Of a stretch of DNA of 64,000 bases, positions 23,132 through 48,239 are shown piece by piece. This DNA comes from Paracoccaceae bacterium. GTDB lineage: Bacteria; Pseudomonadota; Alphaproteobacteria; Rhodobacterales; Rhodobacteraceae. A model generated the notes under the pieces. It was not told where the DNA came from. It saw only the letters and a program-made list of their open reading frames with translations, and made no database searches. A program made the translations under genes and the position numbers. Location of the stretch: positions 1 through 64,000 of the forward strand of contig CACPBQ010000007.1 in NCBI GenBank assembly GCA_902632125.1, written 5' to 3'. Numbering within the stretch: the first letter of the stretch is position 1; each line of letters opens with the position of its first letter.

Positions 23132-23156
23132 GCGCCTCTTATAGATAAACTTGTAC

Positions 23157-41752: not shown

Positions 41753-42241
41753 TTAATCATTATCGGAAAGTCCAGCTCCTGCGCCACTAAGTCTGCTTTC
41801 TTCGGTAGCAGGTGCGTAAGTATTATTTGCATGGTTATTTAATATTTTGAATTGTGATTTGTTTAGGCAAGCACGAAATGATGGTATTTGCTTTGCTCCT
41901 CGGATAAATAATTCTTTTCCATTCCATTCATATTTATCCAATTTAACTTTGGTATCAGGTGCTACGATGACTGAGGCCGCTAAATCAAAAATATCCTTCA
42001 GTTTGTTGCTACTAGGTCGATCAATTTTCTTACAATAGTCTATCCAAAAAGAACTATCACTTAAATGATCAAGCCAAGTATCGAGTTTATCTACCCCAAA
42101 TGACATAAGCCAGGCCCCACAAGCGGCGGCATCTTCCGCAATTCCCCAAGGTAAACCTGAGCCCACTGCAGCCTTATTTAAGAGAGCTTCATATTCATTC
42201 AGAGAAAGCTCAATCCCTTGTGTCAAGGTGCCCAAATCCAA
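41753..42241 (-). CDS. DUF3726 domain protein
   Basis: Protein of 162 residues. The N-terminal SLNEYEALLNKAAVGSGLPWGIAEDAAACGAWLMSFG segment matches the DUF3726 family, which is named for sequence only. No signal peptide, membrane segment or catalytic motif is obvious. A C-terminal tail rich in Ser, Gly and Asp ends the protein. The gene starts 19 bases inside the end of the 557-residue gene upstream, so the two products probably work together. The pair lies between petC (convergent) and the acyl-CoA-synthetase-like/thiolase pair (divergent). The function is unknown. Confidence 0.75.
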   Translation of the reverse strand: MDLGTLTQGIELSLNEYEALLNKAAVGSGLPWGIAEDAAACGAWLMSFGVDKLDTWLDHLSDSSFWIDYCKKIDRPSSNKLKDIFDLAASVIVAPDTKVKLDKYEWNGKELFIRGAKQIPSFRACLNKSQFKILNNHANNTYAPATEESRLSGAGAGLSDND

Positions 42242-43896
42242 TTTTCTGGATCGCTTCCCGAAGACAATTCGTCCGGAAACGGTGCGCCTTTAAACATATT
42301 AATTCTTACCCATCTGTCGGAGCGGGGATCAAAATGGCAGGCGCCAAAGAATGATAATTTTGCTCGTAACATATCAATAGGTAACATAGAACTATCAATT
42401 GTATTATCCCGTATTTCTGAAAATGGTAATTCGCTACAAGTAAGACAGCGCCTTATTATGTGCCTATGTTCTGGGTAAGTCTGTAAAAAATCAGCTGTAG
42501 TTGTGTTTGGGTCAATTTCACAAAGATTTTTATATGCCCTTGCTATATCGCGACCTGGCTGCAGTGCCTGTTCGTATTCGTTTAATTCTGGCATCTCGTG
42601 CCGCTCACCCAAACGCGGCTCTAATTTTTCCTCAGAAGTATACCACGCTCGAGCATTACAATCAGGATCTGACCAATCAATTTCTAGAGCCCAACCATAA
42701 TAATTCTCAATAGCAGACTTTAACTTAGCGGTGGTTATGTCGCCATCTATTAGAAAAAGTTTTGTCTCGTCACAAGACATTTCATCACCAAAATTATCTA
42801 CTAGATGTCCATAAGGCTCTAAAATAAGAGAGTTTAACATTTCTTGGCCTTCAAAACTCAGTACTTTTTCCGACCAAACACATAAAATTTTCCATGGGAA
42901 ATCCACACTAAAGTCAAAATCTTCTAACTTTGCTTCTAGTTTTCCAATATCGTGTTCTAGAGCTCTATTTTTTTGAATTTGTATTGGGTGCTCTGACTGC
43001 CACGCTTTTAAGTGAGGTTTTAATCTTTTCACCAGGTCTTTAAATTTTTTAACTTCAGCTTGCGTGGAAGTTTTTAAATTTTTAACTGTTGCAATAGCGT
43101 TTTCTTTAGCTTCGAACCAATTGTGAATTAATCTAGGGTGATTGACTAAGAATGGTGCCATTCCAAGACCAGTCGAATTACCAACACCAAAAGAGCGCTT
43201 TATAACTTTATTTAGTTTTACTGCGTTATCTGGGTTTTTTAGTTTCGCCAGATGCTCAATCAAATCCATTACAAATGTTCGGATAAAATACACAGTCATC
43301 ATTTCTAATTGGAAAGGAGAGTTTGCTTCTTCACGGTTTACTACCACACGACGGTCTGCTGAACCAAATTTTCCTGATCCATAAACTGCAGTTGTACGCA
43401 TCAAATAGCCAACATCTCTTACACGCTTTATGTCTGGTTGATTACCATTTGCTAGACAGTCTAAAACGTAATTCCAGAGCCTAACGGATCGGTTAGCACG
43501 TGATAAACATAATTCATTTTGTGTTAGCCGACCCTCTTCCTGATAAGGCACATGTTTTTCTAATCTTTCTAAGTCATTAATTGTAGGCTTCCCATCGTAA
43601 AGAGTAAATGTAGCATCCCAAGCCGAGGCTATAACGCGATCGCTCCGCATTTCGTCAGGTAAATCATGTGAAAAACATATCAGAGTATAATCCCGTTTTG
43701 GTGTGCTGAACCTGTATAATGCTCTGCCTACACCATTTTCATTTATTTCAAATAGGTCTCTATTAAACTCCCAATTTTCTCTTGAAGCTCTTCTTAAAAA
43801 TTGTCTCAAGAAAGAAAGCCTGGACTGATGCATGGAGCCCATACGATCTAAGCGCATCACCTTTTCAGCGGATCGTTTAAGATTGGAAATTCCCAC
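42223..43896 (-). CDS. Conserved protein of unknown function, 557 residues
   Basis: I do not recognise a function. The N terminus is basic (RLDRMGSMHQSRLSFLRQFLRRA). A glycine-rich FGVGNSTGLGMAPFL lies at about 236-250 and is followed by a long charged helical, probably coiled-coil region (about 257-327). A CLTC pair occurs late, and the end reads DRWVRINMFKGAPFPDELSSG. No signal peptide or membrane segment is visible. The GTG start is uncertain; in-frame ATGs at codons 14, 19 and 22 are alternatives, but the conserved-looking RLDRMGS region argues for a start at or before codon 14. Its product is tied by gene overlap to DUF3726. I recall this pair in other proteobacteria, with no known role. 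Confidence 0.75.
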   Translation of the reverse strand: MGISNLKRSAEKVMRLDRMGSMHQSRLSFLRQFLRRASRENWEFNRDLFEINENGVGRALYRFSTPKRDYTLICFSHDLPDEMRSDRVIASAWDATFTLYDGKPTINDLERLEKHVPYQEEGRLTQNELCLSRANRSVRLWNYVLDCLANGNQPDIKRVRDVGYLMRTTAVYGSGKFGSADRRVVVNREEANSPFQLEMMTVYFIRTFVMDLIEHLAKLKNPDNAVKLNKVIKRSFGVGNSTGLGMAPFLVNHPRLIHNWFEAKENAIATVKNLKTSTQAEVKKFKDLVKRLKPHLKAWQSEHPIQIQKNRALEHDIGKLEAKLEDFDFSVDFPWKILCVWSEKVLSFEGQEMLNSLILEPYGHLVDNFGDEMSCDETKLFLIDGDITTAKLKSAIENYYGWALEIDWSDPDCNARAWYTSEEKLEPRLGERHEMPELNEYEQALQPGRDIARAYKNLCEIDPNTTTADFLQTYPEHRHIIRRCLTCSELPFSEIRDNTIDSSMLPIDMLRAKLSFFGACHFDPRSDRWVRINMFKGAPFPDELSSGSDPENWIWAP

Positions 43897-44031
43897 AATG
43901 TGATTAATTGGACCTACTCCTGAATTTAAAAATTTAATAGATTTTTATAATAAACTGTGTTTTTGGATTTTCCAAGTCCACTTGATATTATAATTACTTT
44001 AATAAATAAAACTCAACTTTACAGATATATA

Positions 44032-44043
44032 TTTCTTAAGAAA
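44032..44043. promoter_or_regulatory. Palindrome before the acyl-CoA-synthetase-like gene
   Basis: TTTCTTAAGAAA is a perfect 12-base dyad 25 bases upstream of the start of the ANL-type gene, in a very AT-rich divergent gap. It could be an operator, but such dyads arise easily in AT-rich DNA. Confidence 0.3.
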
Positions 44044-44068
44044 AAATTAACTTTAGCTCTTAAAATTT

Positions 44069-45256
44069 TTGGTGTTAAAATTGGCAAACTTATTTAATTG
44101 GCACGCTAACTCACGGTATTCAAATTTAAATTTAAAGCCATGCAATTTTTCAGAGGCTATATCGGCAAATATTGCACTAGGAATTTTTATTAAAAAGATT
44201 TCAGAGGGCAAGTGCCCGATTATTTTGGATTTTGATCAAGTAAAAAGTAGCAACTATAATAGTGTTGGCGTTTTCAGAACTAAAACTGGTGGAACCTCTA
44301 AAGAACCTAAATCTGTCCTAAGAACTACCCAGAGCTGGATCAGTTCATTTGAAGTCATCAAATCATTACAAAAAGAAAAAGAAAAATATTTGATATTTGG
44401 TGATTTAACACATTCTTTAGCATTATATGGAGCGCTTGAGGCGTTGTATTTAGGACATAATGTTCACCAAGTGAAGAAACTTAGATCTAAAAGTGAATTA
44501 AAGGCAACGATTAAATCTGAACCAACTTTTGTTTATATCACGCCTACACAAATAAGATTTATTTCACCGCTTTTTATAACCCTACCCAGTGCTTTAAATG
44601 TTTTTATTGGAGGAGGGCGCCTAACTTCTCAAACTAGAGAAATGGCCAAACAAATTTTTCCTAATGCGGTCTTACATTTATTTTATGGATCCAGTGAAAC
44701 AAGCTTTATAACACTTTCAGATAATTTTACCCCAGTTGGATCAGTTGGTAGGGCTTTCCCAAATGTTAACATAAAAATTGAAAAAAATGGATCCAACAAA
44801 AATCGCATATGGGTTAAATCAGATTACCTATTTTTGAAATATGCTCAAGGGGCAAGTAAAAATGTGGTTTGGCAAGATAATTGGTTAACAATTGGTGAAT
44901 ACGGAAAGATAGACAGAAATGGATATTTATTTCTTCTTGGTGAAGAAAATTCACGCATAACAGTCGCTGACAAAACCATAGCAACCTATGAAATTGAAGA
45001 CAGGCTTAAGGCGATTGACTATATAGTAGATGCGGCGGTTTGGAAAATTGAAAACAAATTGAGTGATTATCGAATAGTGGCTGCAGTAGCAACAACTAAA
45101 AAAATTCCCTCTGACCAGCTTAAAAAGGCTCTGATAGAAATAAACCAGGTCTTTAAACCTAAAAAGATTTATAAGATTAGTGTTAATCAGTGGCCATTAT
45201 TGCCATCAGGAAAAACAGATCTTAGAGCTTTGAAAAGTATCTGCCATGACTATTAG
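44069..45256 (+). CDS. Shortened ANL-family (acyl-CoA synthetase-like) protein
   Basis: AMP-forming ligase fold of 395 residues, about 100 shorter than usual acyl-CoA synthetases, mostly at the N-terminal side. A P-loop-like TKTGGTSKEPK lies at 71-81 and the A5 motif FYGSSET at 205-211. IGEYGKIDRNGYL (275-287) stands where TGD is usual, with Glu for Asp, and the catalytic Lys382 is in LPSGKTDL. It may therefore still adenylate a small carboxylate. Its TTG start is uncertain. The stop overlaps the thiolase start by 11 bases. The ANL-plus-thiolase pair beside bioY recalls yhfT-yhfS-yhfU of Bacillus subtilis, a biotin-regulated operon. Confidence 0.75.
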   Translation: MVLKLANLFNWHANSRYSNLNLKPCNFSEAISANIALGIFIKKISEGKCPIILDFDQVKSSNYNSVGVFRTKTGGTSKEPKSVLRTTQSWISSFEVIKSLQKEKEKYLIFGDLTHSLALYGALEALYLGHNVHQVKKLRSKSELKATIKSEPTFVYITPTQIRFISPLFITLPSALNVFIGGGRLTSQTREMAKQIFPNAVLHLFYGSSETSFITLSDNFTPVGSVGRAFPNVNIKIEKNGSNKNRIWVKSDYLFLKYAQGASKNVVWQDNWLTIGEYGKIDRNGYLFLLGEENSRITVADKTIATYEIEDRLKAIDYIVDAAVWKIENKLSDYRIVAAVATTKKIPSDQLKKALIEINQVFKPKKIYKISVNQWPLLPSGKTDLRALKSICHDY

Positions 45257-46361
45257 ACGTGTTTTCGTAATTGCAGGTAAGCGTAGCGCCGTTGCGCCAC
45301 GTGATGGAGCTTTTGCATCGCTGAACTATTATGATTTGGCAGCCCAGGTTTTGATCGACGTTTTGAATGCAGCAAAAATAGAAAAGCTCGACGTTGATGA
45401 ACTCATAGTTTCTAATGCTTTAGGTGCTGGTGGAAATCCAGCTAGAATGGTTAGCCTTGAAGCAAGGCTTAATCTTTCTGTAGGTGGAATTTCCATCGAT
45501 AGGCAGTGCTGTGGAGGATTAGACGCAATAAGTATTGGTTCAGATCTTATAAGAAGTGGTCGCTCAGAAGTTGTTGTTGCTGGAGGGGTGGAAAGTTATT
45601 CGACTCGACCAATTAGATTACGGTCGGAAAATACAGACAAGGTATTGGTTCCTTATGATCGACCTCCTTTTGCTCCTTTTGGTTTTAATGATCCTGAATT
45701 GGCAGAAGCCACTGCAAAGTTAGCAAGAAAGTTTGAAATTAGTAAAAAAGAACAAGATGACTGGAGTATTAATAGTCACTTAAATGCCTTGAAATCTGAA
45801 AAAATATTAAGATCTGAGATAACTCCAATTTTAGATCAAAAAAAAGATTTATTTACCAGAAAACTCAGCCAAAAAATTTGTGAAAGAGCACCTAAATTGT
45901 CAGATACCATTACTTATGCAAACTCCGCGATAGCGGCGGATGCAGCTGGTTTCGTTGTTCTGGTGTCAGAGAACTTTTTAAAAAATAGAATGCTTAAAGG
46001 TATTGAGGTTTTAGATTCTGCAACAAGTGGGGTTTTACCTGAAGAGGCACCATTAGCGCCAGCAGGAGCAATGAAAAAGCTTTTAGATCAAACAGAAGTA
46101 AGATTATCAAATTTAAATTTTATCGAACTTATGGAAGCTTATGCAGCACAAGCAATATTATGTTCTCGTATATGTGATCTAGATTTGGATATAGTAAACA
46201 TAAGAGGCGGGGCCCTTTCTAGGGGTCATCCGATTGGTGCGTCGGGTGCTATTTTGGTAGTTCGATTATTCAATGAACTTATTAAAACCGCTGGAAAATT
46301 TGGAATGGCAGCAATAGCTGCGGCCGGCGGTATAGGTTCGGCTATTATGTTAAAGTCTTAG
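45246..46361 (+). CDS. Atypical thiolase-family protein
   Basis: Thiolase fold of 371 residues. The nucleophile position is kept as Cys88 in DRQCCGGLDA and His328 is in GALSRGHPIGASGA. Two other catalytic positions differ: the NEAF motif reads MEAY (Met296 for Asn), and the C-terminal CxGGG motif reads AAAGGIG, with Ala358 for the acid-base cysteine. Ordinary Claisen condensation or thiolysis may be impaired, and an acyl-transfer role is possible. It is cotranscribed with the short ANL gene and ends overlapping bioY tail to tail by four bases. A place in biotin or pimeloyl-thioester metabolism is an inference from context. Confidence 0.8.
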   Translation: MTIRRVFVIAGKRSAVAPRDGAFASLNYYDLAAQVLIDVLNAAKIEKLDVDELIVSNALGAGGNPARMVSLEARLNLSVGGISIDRQCCGGLDAISIGSDLIRSGRSEVVVAGGVESYSTRPIRLRSENTDKVLVPYDRPPFAPFGFNDPELAEATAKLARKFEISKKEQDDWSINSHLNALKSEKILRSEITPILDQKKDLFTRKLSQKICERAPKLSDTITYANSAIAADAAGFVVLVSENFLKNRMLKGIEVLDSATSGVLPEEAPLAPAGAMKKLLDQTEVRLSNLNFIELMEAYAAQAILCSRICDLDLDIVNIRGGALSRGHPIGASGAILVVRLFNELIKTAGKFGMAAIAAAGGIGSAIMLKS

Positions 46362-46903
46362 TCTCTGGTTAAGACACTAGCGGGGCGCGCCTTGAATATC
46401 GCACCTGTTACTACTGTTGCAAGAATTACCTTTAAAATATCGCCGGGCAAGTAGATAGAAACAGCTACGACTGCTGCATTTAAAGACATACCTGCATTAA
46501 TCATCATACCAATCAGTCCAGGAATATAAAGTATGACTATTCCTCCCACTATTGTAGATAGAGAAACAGAAATTTGAATGTTTACAGACTTTGTTTTCTC
46601 CATAAGCCATCCAGTAACATAGGCCGCTAAGGGAAAACCAATTATAAAACCTGCCGAAGGCCCTGCAAGAAGGCCGATTCCTCCTCTACCTCCAGCCAGC
46701 AAGGGTAATCCTACTAATGTTAAAACAATAAAAAATAATGCTGCTAAACCACCTTTTTTGGAACCTAAAATTGTTCCACAAAGCATAATACCCAAACTTT
46801 GTGCGGTAATTGGTACACCTAAAGCTAACGGAAATGCAGGAACCAGCCCTAATACTGCAATCAGAGCGGCAAATAAAGCTACTAGGACACTTGTTTTTTC
46901 CAT
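46358..46903 (-). CDS. bioY: Biotin-specific ECF transporter substrate-binding subunit BioY
   Basis: Inner-membrane S component of 181 residues with about six membrane segments that binds biotin. Family motifs include PLALGVPITAQSLGIMLCG near the N terminus, the GGRGGIGLLAGPSAGFIIGFP segment and INAGMSLNAAVVAVSIYLPGDILK at the C-terminal side. The ATG shares a base with the upstream bioN stop (TGATG), giving coupled translation. With BioM and BioN it forms an ATP-driven high-affinity importer. No biotin synthesis genes are in the window, so the cell may rely on uptake. Confidence 0.95.
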   Translation of the reverse strand: MEKTSVLVALFAALIAVLGLVPAFPLALGVPITAQSLGIMLCGTILGSKKGGLAALFFIVLTLVGLPLLAGGRGGIGLLAGPSAGFIIGFPLAAYVTGWLMEKTKSVNIQISVSLSTIVGGIVILYIPGLIGMMINAGMSLNAAVVAVSIYLPGDILKVILATVVTGAIFKARPASVLTRD

Positions 46904-47517
46904 CAATTTTCTCGTTTTTTTATTCCACCTCTAGCACGGAGAGCTTCTGAAACATGATCAGCATCATCTAAAATTGATAAAGCTAAAGGTATAGAAATTC
47001 TCCAAAAACTGCGTTTAGTTGATCTGGCAGATTGCGCAAGCATTAAATTTTTTGCTCTTTGTTTTAAAATAGGAATTGACCTAATAAAAAGGCCGATCGT
47101 TATAGACACAGCATGAGAATTAATCCCAAAAATCTTGAGAAAAAATGAGTATTTTTGAATTGTCAAAATTATATCATGGATCTTGCTAGTTAGTAAAAAT
47201 AAGTTTGCTATTAAGAACGCTGAAGTGAGGCGAAAAATAAGGGTCAGACCTTTGTCAAAGTGGTCTAAATACAAATGCCAACAAGCTAAGATTATAATGA
47301 AAGGAATCGTAATCTTAAGACTAGATAATCCTAATCGTAGAAATTTTAATCCGCCGACAAAAAAATAAATAAGCAGGAGCGCCAAAAATATACCAAACAT
47401 TAAAATTGGATTTTTTATAAAAAATAGGAATGCAGCAGCAGCGCAGCTGATTAGCATCTTTTTTTGAATAGAAACCTCGTCTAATTTGGTATTGTCCAAA
47501 GAAACTTCAGCAAACAT
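46903..47517 (-). CDS. bioN: ECF transporter transmembrane subunit BioN
   Basis: EcfT-type coupling subunit of 204 residues with four to five membrane segments followed by the two short ATPase-contact motifs AQSARSTKR and ALRARGG. These Ala-Arg-Gly-type motifs define the family. Start and stop both overlap neighbours by one base (TGATG), the mark of a tight bioM-bioN-bioY operon like that of Rhodobacter capsulatus. Confidence 0.9.
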   Translation of the reverse strand: MFAEVSLDNTKLDEVSIQKKMLISCAAAAFLFFIKNPILMFGIFLALLLIYFFVGGLKFLRLGLSSLKITIPFIIILACWHLYLDHFDKGLTLIFRLTSAFLIANLFLLTSKIHDIILTIQKYSFFLKIFGINSHAVSITIGLFIRSIPILKQRAKNLMLAQSARSTKRSFWRISIPLALSILDDADHVSEALRARGGIKKREN

Positions 47518-48239
47518 CAAATTTTCTTTTCATCAAAATTTTTCATAGCATCTCTATACTCTTTTATAACAGATTTTGGTGGTCCATCAGCTTGAATAAT
47601 ACCTTCCTCAATCCAGATTAATCTCTGATATCTTTGGAATGTTTCCGGAACATGTGAAACGTGAATTATAGTCTGCTTCAGCGAATTTAAGAAATATTCC
47701 AGTTTTAACTGTGTAGGTATATCTATTCCGGTAAATGGTTCATCCAAAAGTAAAACTCTGGGTTTCATTAACAAAACTGCGAGGAGGCAAACCAAGTGTT
47801 TTTGGCCTTGAGACAAAGTAGAAACGGCTCGTTCAAACCAGTCAGCTTTATCATATTGATTTAAACATTCGATAACTTTTAGATCGGCCTCATTTCTGTT
47901 TAAGCCTAATTGAGTGAGGCCAAACCGAAGCTCTTCTCCAACAGTTGGAAAAATAATTTGGTGATCTGGGTTTTGGAAGATTATTCCAACCTTTCTAATA
48001 GCTTTATTTCTATGTTTTGCTACTTCGGTCCCATCGATTAAAACTTCACCACTGGTCAATTCTTGTAAGCCAGCTAAAATTCTTAAGAGGGTGGTTTTCC
48101 CCGAACCATTGCGGCCTATAAACCCAACCTTTTGCTCTATTATAGAAAGATTAAAGTTTTCTAAAATTCTCTCTTTTCCGTAAAAAACAGAAGCCGAGCG
48201 AATCTCAATTTCTGCTGGTTTTTCTCGGGAAATTTCCAT
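47517..48239 (-). CDS. bioM: ECF transporter ATPase BioM
   Basis: Cytoplasmic ABC ATPase of 240 residues. Walker A is GRNGSGKTT (about residues 42-50), the Q-loop region is IIFQNPDHQIIFPTVGEEL as in ECF ATPases, the signature is LSQGQKHL, Walker B is VLLLDEPFTG and the switch histidine is in IHVSHVPE. It powers BioN-BioY. It is first in the operon; the 73-base upstream gap holds TTATAGTTAT, only a weak match to the BioR operator. Confidence 0.92.
   Translation of the reverse strand: MEISREKPAEIEIRSASVFYGKERILENFNLSIIEQKVGFIGRNGSGKTTLLRILAGLQELTSGEVLIDGTEVAKHRNKAIRKVGIIFQNPDHQIIFPTVGEELRFGLTQLGLNRNEADLKVIECLNQYDKADWFERAVSTLSQGQKHLVCLLAVLLMKPRVLLLDEPFTGIDIPTQLKLEYFLNSLKQTIIHVSHVPETFQRYQRLIWIEEGIIQADGPPKSVIKEYRDAMKNFDEKKI

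Follow-up and report, generated by a model that had tools for sequence, protein, structure and literature searches.

The DNA described here is a 64,000-nucleotide stretch of a Paracoccaceae bacterium (assembly GCA_902632125.1, contig CACPBQ010000007.1, positions 1 to 64,000), which we call the window. Within it, a short ANL (AMP-binding) enzyme and a thiolase-like protein are encoded side by side, and the two genes converge on those of a BioMNY-type transporter. Our central observation concerns the thiolase. It has lost Cys378, the catalytic base of the family, as have all 39 thiolases of this kind that we aligned, and the 39 fall on a single branch. The module of pair and BioY recurs in three phyla. 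The relatives of the pair in Bacillus subtilis and Staphylococcus aureus, YhfS and YhfT, are under biotin control and annotated as a thiolase and a fatty acid-CoA ligase. What is new is the loss of Cys378 and the single branch on which it occurred. The comparison speaks against a classical thiolase and, in the window's lineage, against the salvage of biotin precursors. The pair probably does a job that is linked to biotin supply; that it does so as an ANL enzyme working with a non-Claisen acyltransferase has a probability of about 0.65.

The thiolase-like gene (45246..46361, + strand, ATG start) encodes 371 residues, spanned from end to end by Thiolase_N and Thiolase_C (108 and 100 bits). We use Cys89, Asn316, His348 and Cys378 for the canonical catalytic residues, in Zoogloea thiolase numbering, and the positions were also read against solved thiolases. 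The alignment and tree set the 39 cluster thiolases against 29 ordinary ones; they omit seven near-identical copies from the window's genus (L003, L005, L006, L009, L013, L014 and L015), whose thiolase motifs are the same as the window's, and four further loci (L001, L002, L033, L040) are the window itself. The nucleophile Cys89 and His348 are present in all 68. In the window they are Cys88 (codon 45507..45509, + strand), in a DRQC motif where ordinary thiolases mostly have NxxC, and His328 (codon 46227..46229, + strand), in a GHP motif. Cys378 divides the two sets cleanly: every one of the 29 ordinary thiolases has it and none of the 39, which carry Ala (23), Gly (15) or Pro (1). The window has Ala358 (codon 46317..46319, + strand), reading AAAGG for CIGGG. 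The Asn316 of NEAF is missing from 24 of the 39 rows, including the window, where Met296 (codon 46131..46133, + strand) takes its place in LMEAY; the 15 rows that keep it come from Bacillota, Azospirillum, Rhizobium and their kin. The neighbouring motifs have changed as well. The Ser of TAGNxS survives in 3/39 cluster thiolases against 29/29 ordinary ones, and few or none of the cluster thiolases keep the Met of GGxExMS or that of DPxxMG. Where NxxC has its Asn, all 39 have Asp; 4 of the 29 ordinary thiolases share this Asp, and D-x-x-C was dropped as a signature.

In thiolase chemistry Cys378 serves as the acid-base through which the alpha proton is taken off or given back. Its loss should put an end to Claisen chemistry, while Cys89 could still be acylated. 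With the catalytic columns taken out, the tree keeps the 39 cluster thiolases on one side (support 100/100, 200 of 200 bootstrap trees) and infers one change for Cys378 and one for Asn316. Pair thiolases that have no BioY beside them, from Rhizobium and genome G108, sit in the Cys378-less branch too. Since Cys378 is lost in 39/39 and the losers form one branch, YhfS-type proteins are probably not beta-ketothiolases. We found no paper in the openly licensed literature on the loss of Cys378 in YhfS. AlphaFold2 models from single sequences (mean pLDDT 31.8 and 41.0) were not used.

An earlier note on this DNA, made from its letters alone, had proposed kinship with YhfT and YhfS. We judged that likeness through NCBIfam models and through seven Bacillota operons described below, and so at one remove from the B. 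subtilis and S. aureus proteins themselves. The best equivalog model for the window's thiolase is NF005212 (PRK06690), at 227 bits, short of the curated cut-off of 498. A raw score was rejected as proof of kinship, as the three other thiolases of the same genome reach 219-252 bits on that model; kinship was judged rather by how the models rank and by the tree, and in the tree the seven Bacillota YhfS-type thiolases share the Cys378-less branch with the window's protein.

The ANL gene (44069..45256, + strand, TTG start, 395 amino acids; AMP-binding 65 bits) lies directly upstream of the thiolase gene and overlaps it by 11 bases. Its frame measures 399 codons from stop to stop, so a longer ANL is not possible. 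Residue 69 of the protein aligns to position 147 of the YhfT model, which has 487 positions, so some 80 residues are missing from the N-terminus relative to the YhfT family. Most ANLs of the window's family are likewise short (368-417 amino acids; 465 in G032 and 498 in G092). NF005797 (PRK07638) is the best of all NCBIfam ANL models for the protein. The match covers profile positions 147-480 and scores 155 bits, where the next model scores 84, and it lies below the curated cut-off of 518. The A10 Lys382 and the A5 Glu210 are kept, as they are in all 39 family ANLs aligned. At the A7 Asp position stands Glu277, and Glu is found there in most ANLs of the family. The A8 Arg is replaced by Glu292; it is kept in 34/39 and lost only in the window's subclade of 5. 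On plasmid pSymB of Sinorhizobium meliloti Ak57 (L058:5500-6994), the ANL between bioY and the thiolase gene is unannotated and lies in two pieces in different frames, either a broken gene or a sequencing error.

How constant is the company of BioY? We searched the window's genome and 60 relatives for the thiolase and took as bearers those with a match of at least 41% identity. There are 18 of these, the window's own genome and 17 others; the next-best thiolase matches reach at most 34%, and the twelve of them that were fetched (L020-L031) all keep Cys378. ANL and BioY stand beside the thiolase in 18/18. On plasmids, BioY lies within 1.6 kb of the thiolase in the best 28 matches (H1-H28, 35.9-49.3% identity) of 1509 matching records, most of which are ordinary thiolases; several of the 28 are strains of one species and they are not 28 independent cases. 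Matches 29-40 come from Rhizobium; of these H29 (L052) was fetched, and no BioY lies within 8 kb of it. Among 385 evenly sampled Alphaproteobacteria, at least 8 genomes have the thiolase (E <= 1e-48) and 154 have BioY, and all 8 bearers have both (one-sided Fisher p = 0.0006). The two lie within 4 kb of each other in 7/8; in G108 they are on different contigs. An Azospirillum/Rhizobium-type thiolase turned up in at least 3 of 398 Pseudomonadota, all Alphaproteobacteria. As at most 4-5 candidates per genome were scored, the counts from both samples are lower bounds. The ANL-thiolase module is rare, with at least 8 of 385 genomes in the class.

The three-part association recurs in Alphaproteobacteria, Bacillota and Actinomycetota, and the order of the genes is not the same throughout. 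Convergent order is seen in the window, L044, L045 and L048. Paracoccus aminovorans and Azospirillum read bioM-bioN-bioY-ANL-thiolase, Salipiger ANL-thiolase-bioM-bioN-bioY-nitroreductase, Nonomuraea bioY-ANL-thiolase-bioM-bioN, and Streptantibioticus thioesterase-bioM-bioN-bioY-ANL-thiolase; Nonomuraea and Streptantibioticus came to light by way of BioY or ANL searches and count as examples rather than tests. This shuffling argues for selection rather than inherited synteny. Read from the other end the association disappears. None of 80 loci seeded with Bacillota solo BioY has the thiolase (one, L124, has a distant ANL match), so the link runs from the pair to BioY, and BioY as a predictor of the pair was rejected. 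The thiolase is also absent from ten further BioY stretches (L057 and L066 by tblastn).

Taking 32 of the 80 solo BioY loci as a starting point, we also searched 31 Bacillota genomes (L084 not included), and the nine with the best PRK06690 matches were fetched. Seven have a Cys378-less thiolase, in each case the third gene of a bioY-ANL-thiolase operon, and share the DRQC motif with the window. In L185 and L186, the remaining two, Cys378 is present and no BioY was seen. The Niallia proteins (L178) are above both curated cut-offs, at 599 against 498 for PRK06690 and 618 against 518 for PRK07638, while those of L181 and L184 are below; among 14 control genomes one passes each cut-off, presumably B. 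subtilis. The yhfUTS operon of B. subtilis has this same bioY-ANL-thiolase order (PMC4016012). Upstream of six of the seven operons lies a BirA-like repeat, with 3-4 mismatches in 16 to the consensus and a common right half, GTTGAC, which lends the biotin link weak support. The kinship and the three-part association proposed in the earlier note are supported by the best equivalog models, Niallia above both cut-offs, the shared Cys378-less branch, and a BioY beside the pair in 18/18 family genomes, 7/8 bearers of the class sample and 7/7 Bacillota genomes whose fetched thiolase is without Cys378.

Biotin itself enters the argument through what these genomes lack. Gene content was searched in 33 of 37 family genomes (G019, G023, G034 and G036 were left out). 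The biotin synthase gene bioB is found in 0/18 genomes that bear the pair, of which 6 reach a completeness of 90% or more, and in only one of the 33, G017, which is without the pair. Each of the 18 bearers has exactly one BioY. As the sole BioY of genomes without bioB, the window-lineage protein is probably a biotin importer, on the strength of gene content and with other importer types (YigM, for example) not searched for. In this lineage, then, no known route would allow the pair to feed precursors into biotin synthesis. The birA ligase (biotin protein ligase) is present in 28/33 family genomes and in 20/20 of those at least 90% complete, and the idea that the pair replaces it was dropped; it was not found in the window's own genome, which is 70.6% complete.

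In a quick BioY tree, all 31 pair-linked BioYs from the three phyla fall in one half, with the Rhodobacter capsulatus BioY and 6 other solo BioYs, and 28 solo BioYs fall in the other (99% SH-aLRT). The solo sample was seeded with Bacillota BioY and is biased, and B. subtilis YhfU is not in the tree. YhfU is reported to be the pantothenate S component PanU (PMC11487621), so the earlier note's view of it as a biotin transporter is outdated. If the Bacillota operon BioYs share this specificity, the substrate has shifted within that half of the tree. In a locus we read for comparison (L056), the R. capsulatus bioMNY genes follow malonate decarboxylase and malonate transport genes, including a short gene for a biotin/lipoyl carrier.

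How might the parts work together? From the gene content, BioMNY would import biotin. The ANL enzyme, with its A5 Glu and A10 Lys in place, would activate a carboxylic acid as an acyl-adenylate, and its thiolase-fold partner would take up the acyl group on the kept Cys, activated by the kept His, and pass it to an acceptor. Because Cys378 is gone, and in the window Asn316 too, the usual making or breaking of a carbon-carbon bond should be beyond this protein, which would serve as a non-Claisen acyltransferase (or a carrier or thioesterase) and not as a beta-ketothiolase. The acid would most likely be biotin, or a vitamer with the biotin ring complete, brought in by BioY. With such a biotin-ring substrate included, the scheme as a whole falls somewhat short of an even chance. 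YhfT of B. subtilis is reviewed as yielding acyl-adenylates and no CoA thioesters, and as handing acyl groups to acyl carrier protein (ACP) during surfactin production (PMC10988940). Such chemistry fits direct transfer to a protein Cys, and it also points to fatty acids.

The partner genes hint at a thioester that is reduced or released, without naming the acid. A nitroreductase-family gene is found in 9/35 wide pair loci (PF00881 in three that were scanned), all in the Asn316-less branch and once without BioY (L211), and a 4HBT-type thioesterase in 6/35 (Rhizobium, Sinorhizobium, Streptantibioticus, G484 and G678). A bolder and tentative version of the scheme makes use of them. BioY would import a biotin-ring vitamer that the cell cannot use as it stands, one with a shortened side chain, an unsaturated one (as in alpha-dehydrobiotin) or a conjugated one; ANL would activate the carboxylate, the Cys-His enzyme would hold or transfer the acyl group, and the nitroreductase flavoprotein of one branch or the thioesterase of another would reduce or release it, leaving usable biotin. 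We regard this as possible though unlikely. If it were true, the thiolase without Cys378 would represent a novel type of vitamin-salvage enzyme coupled to transport, auxotrophs for biotin in three phyla would reach a vitamer pool outside current accounts, and our view of the biotin available to auxotrophs in sea and soil would change. The two loci in which a transporter of the MFS type follows the pair are both from Azospirillum.

Several observations weigh against the picture we favour. The acid may be a vitamer with the biotin ring or, if the route is one that spares biotin, a fatty acid. The window's ANL, with no A8 Arg and with Glu for the A7 Asp, is uncertain as an adenylating enzyme, and for YhfT itself the reported substrates, in surfactin production, are 3-hydroxy fatty acids (PMC10988940). 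YhfS has been called an acetyl-CoA C-acetyltransferase or HMG-CoA synthase, and its knock-down by CRISPR interference raised B. subtilis biomass, which the authors put down to saved acetyl-CoA; the names are by annotation, and no enzyme assay was seen there (PMC6533722, PMC3686787, PMC8247319). PanU, the neighbour of the pair in B. subtilis, carries pantothenate (PMC11487621). Some copies of the pair have no BioY next door (the Rhizobium p42f type in L051, L052, L208 and L209, and L211 of G108), the partner genes differ between branches (nitroreductase in 9, thioesterase in 6 and neither in 20 of 35 wide loci, the window's genus being among the 20), and the BirA-like repeats of the Bacillota operons are rarer than 5% of shuffles in only 3/7, against 11/12 solo bioY controls. 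At L211:5135-8350 the G108 genes run nitroreductase-ANL-thiolase, and the only BioY of that genome is on another contig.

The main rival takes the report on fatty acids at face value. Under biotin limitation, and hence limited acetyl-CoA carboxylase, the ANL enzyme would activate scavenged fatty or other acids and the thiolase fold would load the acyl groups onto ACP or some other carrier, so that less malonyl-CoA is needed; BioY would be linked by regulation and not by substrate. The adenylation of 3-hydroxy fatty acids by YhfT and their passage to ACP (PMC10988940) fit such a route, as do the biotin-dependent repression of yhfS-yhfT by BirA in S. aureus (PMC6391492), the fab genes in BirA regulons of Desulfovibrionales (PMC5343134) and the copies of the pair that live apart from BioY. 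Yet the coupling of pair and BioY is stricter than regulation alone needs, across lineages with different regulators. Alphaproteobacterial BirA is reported without its DNA-binding domain (PMC5343134), we found no operator at the window's block, and conserved residues around the active site have been replaced. On balance we think it unlikely to be the answer. A second possibility keeps the biotin ring and changes the chemistry. The Cys-His(-Asn) set would act with malonyl units in the manner of a 3-ketoacyl synthase, lengthening a shortened side chain such as that of bisnorbiotin, and fatty acid synthase enzymes would complete the cycle. A Cys-His-Asn set does resemble that of decarboxylating synthases, and Cys378 is lost where Cys89 and His348 are kept, with Asn316 still there in 15/39 rows. 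Against this, Asn316 is missing in 24/39, the window included, nothing points to malonyl binding and the cluster holds no fatty-acid-type reductase set, all of which makes side-chain repair improbable.

The remaining proposals fare worse. A role in vitamin B5 supply for the pair and its BioY-family neighbour, after the example of PanU (PMC11487621), strikes us as very unlikely: the cluster BioY is the sole BioY of genomes without bioB, most of them with the biotin protein ligase, and panB is above cut-off in 5/18 bearers. At L045:4928-7995, in Pseudosulfitobacter pseudonitzschiae, panB and a pantoate-beta-alanine ligase gene stand directly upstream of the pair, beside nadA and nadC; this favours the pantothenate idea, in one locus only and one that also holds the nad genes. 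ANL and thiolase could also be the least that is needed to open and close a beta-oxidation cycle that degrades the valeryl side chain of biotin. Catabolism of this kind is hardly credible: the thiolytic base is missing, the annotations of the clusters we read include neither a hydratase nor a hydroxyacyl dehydrogenase, biotin represses the S. aureus pair (PMC6391492), and in the bearers of the family no bioB was found. Least credible of all is the salvage of pimeloyl or other biotin precursors, which was the earlier note's own interpretation. Every known precursor route requires BioB, so for the window's lineage the 0/18 count contradicts it, unless an unrecognised biotin synthase stands in for BioB; B. 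subtilis and S. aureus carry yhfTS and also make biotin, and there such salvage is conceivable. Association and kinship stand from that interpretation, and precursor salvage falls for this lineage. For the reading we prefer, an ANL enzyme with a non-Claisen acyltransferase tied to biotin supply, we found no paper in the openly licensed literature that gives the pair a role in biotin metabolism.

The block in the window is compact. Downstream of the pair, on the - strand, lie bioY (46358..46906; BioY 116 bits), the S component and the sole BioY found in the genome, bioN (46903..47520; CbiQ 28 bits), the T component, and bioM (47517..48239; ABC_tran 96 bits), the ATPase, so that the three parts of an energy-coupling factor (ECF) transporter form one operon. 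The tails of the thiolase gene and bioY share four bases, and the reading frames, the overlap and the shortness of the ANL are as the earlier note had them; it had rightly called the thiolase atypical and had not mentioned the missing base. The assembly is 1.9 Mb. The thiolase is present in 15/16 same-genus genomes (the exception, G003, is 70% complete), with the same neighbours in the six regions read at length (the left flank of L194 lies beyond its contig); therefore the block is not an assembly accident. The nearest named relatives of the pair are on Rhodobacterales plasmids. No RNA family reaches its gathering score in the window.

Upstream of the ANL gene, the intergenic region 43897..44068 (+ strand) holds a block near GTGTTTTTTGATTTTCCAAG...TATTATAG that is conserved in the 7 same-genus sequences aligned and looks promoter-like by eye; no conserved palindrome of BioR or BirA type was found in it. 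Against the BirA consensus, the best matches have 5/16 mismatches before ANL and 4/16 before bioM, equalled by 137/200 and 27/200 shuffles. BioR control was considered and rejected: TTATNNATAA occurs once in the window, at 23139, away from the block, and looser matches 5' of ANL appear in few relatives and are not conserved. Divergent from ANL, at 41753-43896, are a DUF3726 gene and an uncharacterised gene of 557 amino acids that matches nothing in Pfam or NCBIfam at E 0.001; both keep their place in the two subclades of the genus. Between those subclades the block 44069-48239 changes much faster than some flanking genes, with identities of 35-37% for ANL, 32-36% for BioN and 43-45% for BioM against 87-88% for cytochrome b and 70-73% for an L,D-transpeptidase.

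Where does this leave the window among known systems? BioMNY of R. capsulatus is a known biotin transporter. The window matches it in having one ATPase, one T and one S gene in the order bioM-bioN-bioY, and the two BioYs share a half of the tree. In the stretches read from R. capsulatus, P. denitrificans, Tritonibacter, P. seriniphilus and Aliiroseovarius, no ANL-thiolase pair stands beside bioMNY. LuxE of bacterial luminescence offers an analogy, and only that: this ANL-fold enzyme makes an acyl-AMP and the acyl group passes to a protein Cys. In LuxE the acceptor Cys lies inside the synthetase and a reductase follows, whereas in the window the acceptor would be a thiolase fold. Close too are yhfU(panU)-yhfT-yhfS of B. 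subtilis and yhfT-yhfS of S. aureus, of the BirA regulon, which unite the same three families, and in the window too a BioY-family gene adjoins the pair. The window differs: its pair does not follow bioY but runs tail to tail into a dedicated bioMNY operon, its ANL is without the N-terminal part, its thiolase has lost Asn316 as well, no BirA operator was found, and YhfU is reported to carry pantothenate (PMC11487621). With acetyl-CoA acetyltransferases and 3-ketoacyl-CoA thiolases the window's protein shares Thiolase_N and Thiolase_C, the nucleophile Cys and the His; it departs from them in Asn316, in one Ser and two Met of the neighbouring motifs and, with all 39 rows of its cluster, in Cys378. 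A nucleophile Cys and a His kept, and Cys378 lost: that is the signature that separates the members of this group from ordinary thiolases.

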